Shown here: positions 34,180-37,775 of the stretch, piece after piece
Layout of the letters: each line of letters starts with the position of its first letter
Numbering within the stretch: position 1 is the first letter of the stretch
DNA from: Methylophaga nitratireducenticrescens
GTDB lineage: Bacteria; Pseudomonadota; Gammaproteobacteria; Nitrosococcales; Methylophagaceae
Direction of reading: 5' to 3'
NCBI RefSeq assembly: GCF_000260985.4
Contig: NC_017857.3
Span: 2,108,001 to 2,172,000, forward strand
Length of the DNA stretch: 64,000 nt
Position numbers and translations under genes: made by a program
Notes under the pieces: model-generated
Databases searched by the model: none
Told to the model about the DNA's origin: nothing
Seen by the model: only the letters and a program-made list of their open reading frames with translations

Positions 34180-34782
34180 TTATAAAGCGGTAGATTGATT
34201 ACGTCGGTGTTGAATGAATAATCTGAATCCCAACAATAAAAAAGTAATGAGCAGATAAATTAATGGTTCAGTTTTATCTTGCTTAACCAGCATATAAAAA
34301 TGCACACAAGAAAGCACGACAATAAGATAAATTAAATAATGTAATTTTTTCCAGCGACGGCCACCTAGCCGTTTCATCATCTTGTCGGTAGAAGTAATCG
34401 TCAATGGAATCAGCAAGACAAAGCTGATAAAGCCAATGGTTATAAAAGGACGTTTCACAATGTCCAGCCATATCTCGTGTACATCAAAAAACTGGTCCAT
34501 TCCAAGATACAACAGCATATGCACGCTGGCATAAAAGAAGGCAAACAATCCCAGCATTCGGCGAAACCGGATAAATTGGTTGATACCCGTCAGTTTACGT
34601 AGCGGTGAAATCAATAATGTCACCATAATAAACCGTAACGCCCACACGCCGGTATCTCGGGTCACCGCTTCGATAGGATTAGCACCCAACTGATCGGTCA
34701 GTAACGCATAAATCAGCCAGCTAAGTGGTAATAGCGAAATAATAAAAACCAGCCGTTTCAGACTGGTGATATGTTTTTGCAT
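34180..34782 (-). CDS. msrQ: Protein-methionine-sulfoxide reductase haem-binding subunit MsrQ
   Basis: Inner-membrane b-type cytochrome that feeds electrons from the quinone pool to periplasmic MsrP. 200 residues with six hydrophobic segments. Seen: conserved histidines in YASVHMLLYLGMDQ (near 86), KLHYLIYLIVVLSCVHFYML (near 148-162), typical of the YedZ/ferric-reductase fold, and RFRRMLGLFAFFYA. Its start overlaps the last base of msrP, so the pair is coupled. Last gene of the hvfA-doxX-msrP-msrQ group. Confidence 0.9.
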   Translation of the reverse strand: MQKHITSLKRLVFIISLLPLSWLIYALLTDQLGANPIEAVTRDTGVWALRFIMVTLLISPLRKLTGINQFIRFRRMLGLFAFFYASVHMLLYLGMDQFFDVHEIWLDIVKRPFITIGFISFVLLIPLTITSTDKMMKRLGGRRWKKLHYLIYLIVVLSCVHFYMLVKQDKTEPLIYLLITFLLLGFRLFIQHRRNQSTAL

Positions 34783-35738
34783 CAGAAATATCGTTTAAGA
34801 TCCATGCCGCTATACAGCTCTGCGACTTCGTCTCCATAGCCATTGAACATCAGCGTTTCTCGTTTAAGAAACTCACCAATGCGTCTTTCCCGTCGCTGGC
34901 TCCAACGTGGATGGTTCACATCCGGGTTTACATTAGAATAAAAACCATACTCGCCGGCATTGGCCTGAACCCAGGCAGTTAATGGCATTTCTTCAACAAA
35001 ACGGATTCGCACGATTGATTTGATGCTTTTAAAACCATATTTCCACGGAACCACCAGACGAATCGGCGCCCCATTCTGTCCCGGCATTTCACGGCCATAC
35101 AAACCAACGGCCAGCAATGTTAAAGGATGCATCGCTTCATCCATACGTAGTCCTTCCCGATAGGGCCAATCGAGCACGCGACGACGTTGCCCTGGCATTT
35201 GTTCAGGATCATACAACGTCGTAAATTCAACAAATTTGGCTTTGGAGTTGGGTTGAGCCTGCTTTAACACCTCGGCTAAAGGAAAGCCTACCCAGGGAAT
35301 AACCATTGACCAGCCTTCAACACAACGCAGCCGATAAATCCGCTCTTCCAAGGTCTGCGTTTTTATCAGCTCGTTGTAATCATATTGCCCCGGTTTATCG
35401 CACTCGCCATCAACAGTAATCATCCATGGCTTGCTACGATCAGGAAAATCGGCGGCTAATGCAGAAGGAGATTCCTTGTCAGTGCCAAATTCATAAAAAT
35501 TGTTATAGGAGGTAATAGATTCATAGGTCGTAAGTTTTTCTTCAGTAGAAAAGTCACTGGGTTGAAGGTCAGCATAAGCTTCCCCTGAGGGGGCTTTAGC
35601 AGCAAAGCTAAGCGGTATTGTGCTTGCGGCAGCCAAACCCGCCGCACCATTAATAAATTGTCGGCGATTCAAATAGACCTGATAATCCGTGACTTCTGAC
35701 TCAGGAATATCCCAGGGATGTTTTTTACGAATCCACAT
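34782..35738 (-). CDS. msrP: Protein-methionine-sulfoxide reductase catalytic subunit MsrP
   Basis: Periplasmic molybdopterin enzyme that repairs methionine sulfoxide in envelope proteins, for example after hypochlorous acid or copper stress. 318 residues. Seen: a twin-arginine signal ([16 protein letters not shown], near 28-43) preceded by an unusually long N-terminal stretch typical of YedY, the molybdenum-ligand Cys in [15 protein letters not shown], and [15 protein letters not shown]. Overlaps doxX by 14 bp upstream and msrQ by 1 bp downstream. Confidence 0.93.
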
Positions 35739-36360
35739 GATTCACCTCATTAGGCATGTAACGTTTGGCTAACCAGTAATCAACACTGATATATCGACCA
35801 GCCCCGATAAAGAACAATGCCAGCAACATCACAAAATAAGTTGCGGCAAACTCTATACCATTATTGAGTACAACAAAGTTGCCATGTTCCGTAAGCCAGC
35901 TATAATTTCCATATTCTTGAAGTATTGATTTGGCTCGGTCCAAACGATCTATTGCTTCCCCAGCATTCTCAGCAGCAAAAGCGCTCATCGGATCATGAAT
36001 TGCTTGCCAGCCATTTTTCCAATGCACACTGAACGCAGCAACCAGCATGGTAATCATCAGTGGAATACTGACCCAGCGTACAGCCAGTCCCAGCAATAAT
36101 AAAATAGCACCAAAATACTCAGCCCCCCAGGCCATATAAGCCATCAGCTCGGGAAACGGTAACCCCAATCCCCAGTCCGGATTGGCAAACCAGTCTATGG
36201 TGTTTTGTAATGAACTCTCGGGATTGAAGGGATTCCATTTGTTATTGGCAGCTACCCAGAAAACCGGTATCAAGTAAGCTCTCAATAATAAAGGTGCCAA
36301 AAAATCCACTTTTCGGATGATATTTATTAGCCACTGCACACTTTTAAGCAACTGAATCAT
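35725..36360 (-). CDS. DoxX family membrane protein (HvfD-like)
   Basis: Inner-membrane protein of 211 residues of the DoxX family. Seen: [19 protein letters not shown] near 24-42, segments around [16 protein letters not shown] and [16 protein letters not shown], a polar insert of about 55 residues (116-170), and a final helix. DoxX proteins are regular members of HvfABCD/bufferin operons, where HvfD is a DoxX protein, which fits the cysteine-repeat peptide encoded upstream. Expression relative to hvfA is probably reduced by the hairpin between them. The 14-bp overlap with msrP indicates coupling. Confidence 0.82.
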
Positions 36361-36378
36361 AATAGTTATTCCCAGAGG

Positions 36379-36404
36379 AAAACAGAGGCCGAGGCCCCTG
36401 TTTT
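36379..36404 (-). terminator. Terminator/attenuator between hvfA and doxX
   Basis: On the minus strand a 12-bp stem (AAAACAGGGGCC with GGCCTCTGTTTT, one G-U pair, 2-nt loop) ending in TTTT lies 21 bp after the hvfA stop and 19 bp before doxX. It should let most transcripts end after hvfA, giving more peptide than membrane protein. Confidence 0.75.
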
Positions 36405-36425
36405 TTCGCTTGCTTAAACAAATGT

Positions 36426-36719
36426 TTATTTATTTCCACACTTAGCTTCGCCACATTTGCCTTCAGCATCTTTTTTGCTGTCTTCACCACACTTGGCTTC
36501 ACCACATTTACCTTCAGCATCTTTTTTAGTGTCTTCACCACACTTGGCTTCGCCACATTTGCCTTCTTCGTGATGTTTAGCCAGTTGCATGTAACCACTA
36601 CTTAATTCAGTTGATTGGAATGGGTTGCTATCTGCAGCAGCAATGGGTGAAAAAGCCAGACCTGCAGTCATTGCTGCACTGGCAGCCAACGCGATAGAAG
36701 TTTTTTTGTTCATAGTCAT
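36426..36719 (-). CDS. hvfA: HvfA-like secreted cysteine-repeat precursor peptide (predicted RiPP copper-binding)
   Basis: Predicted 97-residue precursor. Seen: Sec-type signal (NKK, then hydrophobic IALAASAAMTAGLAF, cleavage near AAA-D at 29-30), a short spacer, and three exact EGKCGEAKCG units at 52-61, 69-78 and 86-95, separated by EDTKKDA and EDSKKDA. Cys 55, 60, 72, 77, 89 and 94. Known of the family: EGKCG cysteines of HvfA are converted by the MNIO enzyme HvfB with HvfC into oxazolone/thioamide copper ligands. HvfB/C homologues are not in this window. Start 36719 is preceded by AAGGA at the right distance; a second ATG at 36713 follows. Faces an ECF sigma gene. Confidence 0.85.
   Translation of the reverse strand: MTMNKKTSIALAASAAMTAGLAFSPIAAADSNPFQSTELSSGYMQLAKHHEEGKCGEAKCGEDTKKDAEGKCGEAKCGEDSKKDAEGKCGEAKCGNK
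36435..36566 (-). repeat. Tandem 51-bp repeats encoding EGKCGEAKCG units
   Basis: Two and a half copies of a 17-codon unit inside the hvfA-like gene, nearly identical at DNA level. Such repeats can gain or lose copies, changing the number of modifiable cysteines. Confidence 0.85.
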
Positions 36720-36783
36720 GTTTAAATTCCTTATGTATTGGGTCACATTATTAACCCGACTTTCATAACCGGGCTTGTTGACA

Positions 36784-36811
36784 TAGACTGACCAGCAAAT
36801 CATTTGTTACA
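36784..36811 (-). promoter_or_regulatory. Candidate ECF-sigma promoter of hvfA
   Basis: On the minus strand TGTAAC (36806-36811) and GTCTA (36784-36788) are separated by 17 bp, the AAC / GTC arrangement of ECF promoters, about 65 bp before the hvfA start. It lies between hvfA and the divergent sigma gene. A looser AAC-N19-GTC pair lies before the sigma gene itself. Confidence 0.4.
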
Positions 36812-36913
36812 AAATTTTATGCATTTCCCTGAAAAACATATCCATCCAGTAAAAGAAGCATTATTTGGTTGAAACATTTGGCTAAACCGTAGGCGTCAGG
36901 ATTCATTAACACA

Positions 36914-37534
36914 ATGATAGACAAGCATGCTTCACACTATTTTGAGAATGATGCCGCATTAATTGCCGCCATGCTTGAAGGTGACTCAACTGCTTTTGAA
37001 GCGGCTGTAGCGCTATATCATCCAAGAATGGTAACCATCGCCAAAGCCATTATCGGGGAAGCCTTCGCAGAAGAAATTGCTCAGGATGCCTGGATATCAG
37101 CCATTCGTTCATTGAGTGAATTTGCCGGTCGCAGCAGCCTGAATACATGGCTGATTCAAATCACAGCCAACGCCGCCAAAACCAGACTTCGCAGAGAAAA
37201 ACGTCAGGTCTCGCTGGATGAAAATTGGCAAAAAAGCGAAACAGATGATCGTTTTGATCATAGTGGGCATTGGCAAGAACCGGTTGCTCAATGGGAACTG
37301 GAAACCCCAGAAGCTATTCTGGCCAATAGTGAACTCAGCGACATCATCAGCCAGACCTTCGATCAACTTCCACCACAACAGCAAGCTGTATTGAGCCTTT
37401 ACGATCTGGAAGGCGAATCAATGACAGAAATTTGTAATATTCTCGACATCTCTGCGTCCAATGCAAGAGTATTGCTGCATCGTGCGCGGTCAGCAATTCA
37501 ACAGAAAATCGCTCAATATCAGGATAATGATTAA
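36914..37534 (+). CDS. ECF RNA polymerase sigma factor
   Basis: Group IV (RpoE-like) sigma factor of 206 residues. Seen: region 2 with EIAQDAWISAIRSLSEFAGRSSL near 55-77 and NTWLIQITANAAKTRLR, an acidic linker (about 100-135), and region 4 with LPPQQQAVLSLYDLEGES and helix-turn-helix SNARVLLHRARSAIQ near 178-192. The next gene is a zinc-finger anti-sigma factor, and the divergent genes encode the HvfA-like peptide, DoxX and MsrPQ; these are its most likely targets. A weak AGGA is 13 nt before the ATG. Confidence 0.92.
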   Translation: MIDKHASHYFENDAALIAAMLEGDSTAFEAAVALYHPRMVTIAKAIIGEAFAEEIAQDAWISAIRSLSEFAGRSSLNTWLIQITANAAKTRLRREKRQVSLDENWQKSETDDRFDHSGHWQEPVAQWELETPEAILANSELSDIISQTFDQLPPQQQAVLSLYDLEGESMTEICNILDISASNARVLLHRARSAIQQKIAQYQDND

Positions 37535-37535
37535 C

Positions 37536-37775
37536 ATGCTTAAATGCCGCGAAATTGAACAACTTGCCAGTGACTATCTGGATCAAGATCTGTCATTTGG
37601 GCAACTTATGGCATTCAAAATGCATTTATTTATTTGTCATAACTGCCGTAATTACGTGCGCCAGCTCAAGATAACTATCACCAGCATCAAATTGATGCCA
37701 GCAAACCAAATCATTGTGGATGACAAAACCAAAGAACTGGCGAAACTGCTTAGAGAAAATGCCAGAAAACATTAA
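37536..37775 (+). CDS. Zinc-finger anti-sigma factor
   Basis: Small soluble protein of 79 residues with the anti-sigma zinc motif HxxxCxxC (MHLFICHNCRNY), an N-terminal Cys in LKCREIEQLAS, and no membrane segment, so it is a cytoplasmic ZAS-type anti-sigma, possibly redox- or metal-sensing through its cysteines. The start may be ATG 37527 (8-bp overlap with the sigma gene) or ATG 37536, which matches the usual family N-terminus; I use the latter. Cotranscribed with the ECF sigma gene and convergent with the DUF1244 gene. Confidence 0.8.
   Translation: MLKCREIEQLASDYLDQDLSFGQLMAFKMHLFICHNCRNYVRQLKITITSIKLMPANQIIVDDKTKELAKLLRENARKH

Follow-up and report, generated by a model that had tools for sequence, protein, structure and literature searches.

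The segment between positions 34180 and 37775 of a 64,000-nucleotide stretch of the Methylophaga nitratireducenticrescens genome (contig NC_017857.3; the whole stretch is referred to as the window) probably represents one half, that of the precursor, of a divided HvfABCX-type pathway for a ribosomally synthesised and post-translationally modified peptide (RiPP), run as a regulon of an extracytoplasmic function (ECF) sigma factor and its anti-sigma factor under oxidant and metal stress of the cell envelope. On the minus strand, the EGKCG peptide gene hvfA is followed by hvfX (a DoxX gene), msrP, and msrQ, and the genes of the ECF sigma factor and the anti-sigma factor run divergently, in this order, on the plus strand. 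The genes of the modifying enzymes, hvfB and hvfC, are encoded elsewhere in the genome. Precursor and enzymes are kept apart across the family, yet they are joined by one promoter-like motif.

The precursor locus and its gene products

An earlier note on this DNA had named the peptide, a DoxX protein, msrP-msrQ, an ECF sigma factor, and an anti-sigma factor as parts of the locus. All of them were found and could be named by curated models, and they are listed here with the motif and the hairpin discussed below.

36426..36719, minus strand: hvfA-type precursor (NF050137, 73.2 bits, cut-off 19.5)
35725..36360, minus strand: hvfX, DoxX-family membrane protein (NF050144, 234.8 bits, cut-off 80; PF07681, 70.4 bits)
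34782..35738, minus strand: msrP, periplasmic molybdopterin methionine sulfoxide reductase (NF003767, 472.1 bits, cut-off 207)
34180..34782, minus strand: msrQ, haem-binding membrane subunit (NF003831, 188.3 bits, cut-off 130)
36914..37534, plus strand: ECF sigma factor (Sigma70_r2 and r4_2 matches; TIGR02937 over cut-off)
37536..37775, plus strand: ZAS-type (zinc-binding) anti-sigma factor (NF052368, 67.5 bits, cut-off 50; C-x25-H-x3-C-x2-C)
36785..36811 (genome 2144785-2144811), minus strand: promoter-like motif TGTAACA-N16-GTCT upstream of hvfA, common to the hvfA and hvfB loci of the family
36361..36425, minus strand: hvfA-hvfX gap with a strong hairpin, its 3' arm running into T's, a possible partial terminator

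The peptide has 97 residues if translation starts at 36719 and 95 if it starts at the next ATG, the automatically called reading frame being open from a point further upstream, and it consists of a Sec signal peptide (recognized by eye), an NPFxSxELSxGYMQLA stretch, and three EGKCGEAKCG units with a 17-residue period and six Cys residues. A signal peptide combined with repeated EGKCG, together with the match to the family model, assigns it by sequence to the HvfA-family precursors. It does not correspond to the Met-rich repeat peptides of the MrpX/BcrX type, since a single Met is left after the signal peptide, alongside the six Cys residues. DNA coding for EGKCG occurs at three sites in the genome, all of them inside hvfA, so the genome-wide check for further EGKCG peptides that had been suggested returned none beyond hvfA.

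As for the other products, MsrP (synonym YedY) and MsrQ both exceed the cut-offs of their models, as expected of an MsrPQ system, and the DoxX protein belongs to the HvfX family. The anti-sigma factor adjoins the ECF gene and agrees with the ZAS pattern C/H-x23-26-H-x3-C-x2-C in both the model search and a pattern check. There is a 14-base overlap between hvfX and msrP and a single-base one between msrP and msrQ and, therefore, hvfX-msrP-msrQ can be read as one unit. In two related loci (L139 and L182), unlike the other listed loci of the family, the ECF gene and an anti-sigma-like match are on opposite strands.

Between hvfA and this unit, the strong stem running into T's is a feature of the window that relatives also show. 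Of 30 relatives, all but L169 have a stem of the type GGGCTC/GAGCCC or one like it (29 of 30); these 30 are the 32 MsrP-type loci of the HvfX scan described below without L135 and L161. The simplest explanation may be a partial terminator that makes the peptide more abundant than HvfX and MsrPQ.

Separation of precursor and enzymes across the family

A search of the whole genome, as the earlier note had proposed for DUF692 and DUF2063 genes, gave a single match to the multinuclear non-haem iron-dependent oxidative enzymes (MNIO), HvfB (PF05114, 363.9 bits; NF003818, 446.6 bits, cut-off 360), with HvfC (NF050145, 295.9 bits, also over cut-off) encoded by the gene directly after it. The pair is located at 2244378-2245953 of contig G000:C1, about 100 kb from hvfA. 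Hence, the claim that HvfB and HvfC are absent is correct for the locus and wrong for the genome, and the statement that MsrPQ takes their place stands as a description of gene position and of nothing beyond it. The closest solved structures are 3bww for HvfB (262 bits) and 3dee for HvfC (47.8 bits), a protein pair that has been linked to RiPP clusters (PMC13097082). No DUF2282 precursor was matched in the genome, and no evident precursor adjoins hvfBC among the open reading frames of at least 70 residues. With a single EGKCG gene, no DUF2282 match, and a single MNIO, HvfA is therefore the sole recognized substrate and HvfBC the sole recognized enzyme pair. The MNIO and its DUF2063 partner do not share a cluster with the precursor as in a standard hvfABCX cluster, and the whole system is a split and probably co-regulated variant of it.

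A secreted protein of 249 residues with an invariant CGC stretch is encoded upstream of hvfB (L005, 5549-6298) and precedes hvfBC in 24 of 30 hvfB loci. Neither Pfam nor NCBIfam models match it over cut-off, and its predicted structure is mostly beta (pLDDT 75.5, pTM 0.56), with mainly generic beta-sandwich matches at low TM-scores.

The comparison of the locus among relatives, which had also been suggested, covered 57 genomes of the family, 36 of them of good quality (completeness of at least 90% and contamination of at most 5%), and it showed that both the hvfA-msrP linkage and the distant position of hvfB are kept. Matches over cut-off were obtained for hvfA in 48 genomes, for hvfB in 51, and for msrP in 49, and the ECF sigma factor was counted in 48, including one fragment. 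In 47 of the 48 genomes with hvfA, msrP shares its strand and is at most 3 kb away, so this linkage is not due to chance; the sole exception is G014, where hvfA lies near a contig end. A divergent ECF match within 3 kb of hvfA is present in 46 of the 48, one of them (G022) as a fragment only. Conversely, hvfB is within 10 kb of hvfA in none of the 46 genomes with both genes over cut-off; they are on separate contigs in 38 and on one contig, at least 48.8 kb apart, in eight. The hvfC gene directly follows hvfB in 30 of 30 loci examined. The split of precursor and enzymes is, thus, a family trait. Only one of the two genes was detected in seven genomes, hvfA in two and hvfB in five, and none of these seven is more than 86% complete. 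Among the good-quality genomes, hvfA, hvfB, and msrP are each present in 35 of 36, and the one exception, G003 (1.1 Mb, rated 100% complete), lacks all three as well as the ECF gene.

A promoter-like motif shared by hvfA and hvfB

The motif TGTAAC-N18-TC, mostly in the form TGTAACA-N16-GTC and with fixed spacing, is found upstream of both hvfA (86-100 bases before the gene in the first set of loci) and hvfB (56-64 bases). It is exact at hvfA in 46 of 48 genomes (29/30 in the first set and 17/18 in the second) and at hvfB in 50 of 50 (30/30 and 20/20), the latter count leaving out G009, whose gene starts at a contig end. As for the two misses at hvfA, G008 has two copies of hvfA in tandem, of which the second was read, and the motif is visible further upstream, and in G022 the second element differs and the ECF gene is broken. 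In a control of 100 shuffles, a mean of 0.07 of 30 upstream regions and a maximum of one carried the motif, and the next best spacing, N14, reached 10/30 at hvfA and none at hvfB. In sets examined for comparison, the motif occurs in 2 of 20 readable upstream regions of slp, in 1 of 28 hvfA loci from other families, and in 4 of 48 HvfX loci without MsrP. Within the M. nitratireducenticrescens genome, the motif with TCT appears at nine sites versus four in a reversed control; a broader search gave 11 sites, whereas its reversed control gave 53, and among the sites inspected only dsbD, slp, and hvfA are preceded by the motif in promoter position. In 19 of 28 listed loci, no more than about 110 bases separate the hvfA start from the first Met of the ECF frame, which is near the motif. 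By eye, the motif resembles the consensus given for meningococcal sigma-E (GTMAGBWTT, 12-13 bases, CGTCTAAH; PMC2893595). The shared motif and the presence of HvfB and HvfC elsewhere in the genome lend support to part of what the earlier note had envisaged, namely a co-controlled envelope-defence regulon in which modification is supplied in trans.

The dsbD gene was chosen through the motif, which lies 58 bases upstream of it in the M. nitratireducenticrescens genome. Upstream stretches were surveyed in 55 of the 57 genomes, the fragmented G004 and G043 being left out, and 47 of them (26/30 and 21/25) carry the motif within one mismatch, a count that has no chance estimate attached. From these sequences, dsbD is a probable rather than a certain third target of the regulon, because the variants mostly read TGAAAC and an element resembling a sigma-70 promoter, recognized by eye, overlaps the motif region. 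The gene of the Slp-family outer membrane lipoprotein (L067, 774643 in the same genome) has the motif 56 bases upstream, but it was rejected as a regulon member, since the motif precedes slp only there and in G041 out of 30 loci, 10 of which gave no usable reading frame. Another site is located 60 bases before a gene at L066 that we take to be P-II.

Several observations weigh against the interpretation of the locus as a split pathway run by its own ECF sigma factor. The peptide scores 56.8 bits with the narrower HvfA equivalog model NF050188, under its cut-off of 95, and the hairpin after hvfA is absent from the output of a terminator scan that requires five T among the eight bases following the stem. 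The motif at dsbD is exact in only 29 of 55 genomes (23/30 and 6/25), where the overlapping sigma-70-like element also counts against control by the ECF factor. Moreover, ECF matches over 160 bits occur in 32 of the 36 good-quality genomes versus 35 for hvfA, hvfB, and msrP (an ECF tally of 35 of 36 includes a second, weaker ECF), the exceptions being G003, G014, G022 (fragment), and G027. The locus of G027, a genome that is 99% complete, has no ECF gene, the region upstream of hvfA in G014 gave no ECF match, and the ECF gene of G022 is broken into pieces in different frames. Nevertheless, the motif is kept at hvfA in G027 and G014 and at hvfB in all three, which may mean either that another sigma factor reads it or that the losses are recent. 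Finally, L282, from another family, combines HvfX with a ZAS match and a weak match to the ECF factor (51 bits), but no motif precedes its hvfA.

These ECF losses and L282 are also what favors the first alternative, in which a different sigma factor recognizes the shared motif and the adjoining ECF has other targets or merely tunes the hvfA operon. This seems rather unlikely, since the divergent ECF match is retained in nearly all genomes with hvfA and since L194, a locus without MsrP or hvfA, pairs this ECF with the motif. G003, which has lost the ECF gene together with hvfA, hvfB, and msrP, also lacks the motif at dsbD; however, so do G017, G022, and G056, the last of which has the ECF gene.

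Putative mechanism and remaining alternatives

In the split-pathway model, stress acting on the zinc-thiol anti-sigma factor would set free the ECF sigma factor, which would then read the motif before hvfA-hvfX-msrPQ, before the unlinked hvfBC, and probably before dsbD. Before Sec export, HvfBC could act on HvfA in the cytoplasm and modify its six EGKCG cysteines; as in the analogous pathways of Haemophilus and Neisseria, the products might be 5-thiooxazoles. HvfBC has been reported to prefer HvfA with the signal peptide still on (PMC13419390) and, therefore, modification would precede export and enzymes supplied from another locus would suffice. It has already been suggested that precursors located away from MNIO genes may be modified from another locus, or not at all (PMC12452194). 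The mature peptide would bind copper in the periplasm, where MsrPQ would repair oxidized methionines and DsbD could supply thiol reductant.

Alternatively, the peptide could be an oxidant sink that stays largely unmodified and is repaired by the adjoining MsrPQ, as proposed for MrpX of Azospira and BcrX of Brucella. The layout in Brucella is indeed alike, with an ECF/anti-sigma pair beside a small Met-rich peptide and MsrQP, induced by hypochlorous acid (HOCl) (PMC8315932), and the Met of GYMQLA is retained in all listed MsrP-linked peptides except that of L139. However, the substrate of MsrP is methionine sulfoxide, and the mature peptide of the window has one Met against six Cys. Enrichment in Met was looked for by eye, with no statistical test, and was discarded: MsrP-linked peptides contain no more Met than HvfBC-linked ones, and GYM is seen in both groups. 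In addition, all good-quality genomes that have hvfA also have hvfBC, which carries the same motif. An oxidant sink is, thus, improbable, and the related idea of the earlier note that the peptide works unmodified is weakly placed, as the good-quality genomes hold hvfA, hvfB, and msrP together or, in the one remaining case, none of them.

A more far-reaching and distinctly doubtful possibility is that MsrPQ and HvfX are parts of a redox cycle of the peptide itself, in which electrons from MsrQ, via MsrP or HvfX, would restore oxidized sulfur in the metal-loaded thiooxazole peptide; if true, metal buffering and repair would be one reaction system and not two co-regulated ones. That hvfBC acts on another, unrecognized precursor and the hvfA-hvfX-msrPQ operon is independent of it is highly unlikely: many MNIO genes have uncharacterized small precursors close by (PMC12452194), but none is evident beside hvfBC among the open reading frames of at least 70 residues, the genome offers no further EGKCG site and no DUF2282 match, and hvfA and hvfB share both their presence pattern and their promoter motif.

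Known systems and loci outside the family

That EGKCG peptides and Msr enzymes are linked with an ECF factor and its small anti-sigma partner is already known from Neisseria and Haemophilus, and functionally also from Caulobacter and Brucella, so the novelty implied in the earlier note is lower. In nontypeable Haemophilus influenzae, the hvfABCX (oxazolin) system likewise comprises an EGKCG precursor, an MNIO, a DUF2063 partner, and a DoxX protein (PMC7907618, PMC13419390), and RpoE2 with its small anti-sigma factor controls, in the RpoE2/HrsE regulon, both the four-gene hvf operon and msrAB under HOCl (PMC7907618). However, the hvf genes are contiguous there and the reductases are MsrAB and MtsZ, whereas in Methylophaga the pathway is split and MsrPQ belongs to the precursor operon. 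The Neisseria pair of sigma-E and MseR, a ZAS protein, controls msrAB and the operon NMB2140-2145, with DoxX-type and hypothetical genes beside the sigma-E/ZAS genes, through a similar promoter consensus (PMC2893595, PMC3240639); this is, however, a single operon that contains the sigma genes, and msrAB is unlinked. SigF of Caulobacter controls two DUF2282-MNIO operons and YedY (PMC3511200), thus placing MNIO-RiPP operons and this reductase under one ECF sigma factor, but with DUF2282 precursors, the membrane anti-sigma factor NrsF, and an unlinked YedY gene. Brucella bcrXQP and Azospira MrpX with MsrPQ share the ECF/anti-sigma pair adjoining a small repeat peptide and MsrPQ; they differ in having a Met-rich peptide instead of an EGKCG RiPP, and DUF692, DUF2282, and DoxX are not mentioned in the text of PMC8315932. 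The survey of the MNIO landscape (PMC12452194) describes a linkage of EGKCG clusters to PF00174 and ferric-reductase genes but its clusters were gathered around MNIO genes and, therefore, a layout without an MNIO nearby falls outside its search.

In the open-licence literature searched, Methylophaga was not found together with MNIO, HvfX, EGKCG, or DoxX. As far as this literature extends, the new elements are a family-wide precursor-MsrPQ operon without local enzymes, the motif tying it to hvfBC and probably to dsbD, and the conserved hairpin. Searches anchored on the enzymes will overlook such precursors. Moreover, hvfA-hvfX-msrPQ, hvfBC, and probably dsbD would form a compact regulon in cultivable methylotrophs, which bears on the question of why copper-binding thiooxazole peptides accompany methionine repair.

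Outside the family, the hvfA model was found in 52 of 203 genomes of a class sample, and HvfB adjoins hvfA in 20 of 28 hvfA loci from other families. One of these 20, L303, has msrP-msrQ-hvfA-hvfB-hvfC in a row and, thus, linkage to MsrPQ also occurs with the enzymes present, in line with PMC12452194, which reports PF00174 and ferric-reductase genes in a small number of EGKCG clusters. In a scan of HvfX relatives, partners were judged within the stretch around each HvfX; among the best 80 of 219, MsrP is near without HvfB in 32, HvfB and HvfC are near without MsrP in 23, HvfC alone is near in 2, and MsrP, HvfB, and HvfC are all lacking from the examined stretch in 23, including L176, L193, L199, and L213. 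L194 (4069-5606), from a metagenome-assembled genome of the Aeromonadales, is the only one of the 48 HvfX loci without MsrP that has an ECF/ZAS match; the pair runs divergently to hvfX alone, with no hvfA seen, and the exact motif lies 55 bases before hvfX.

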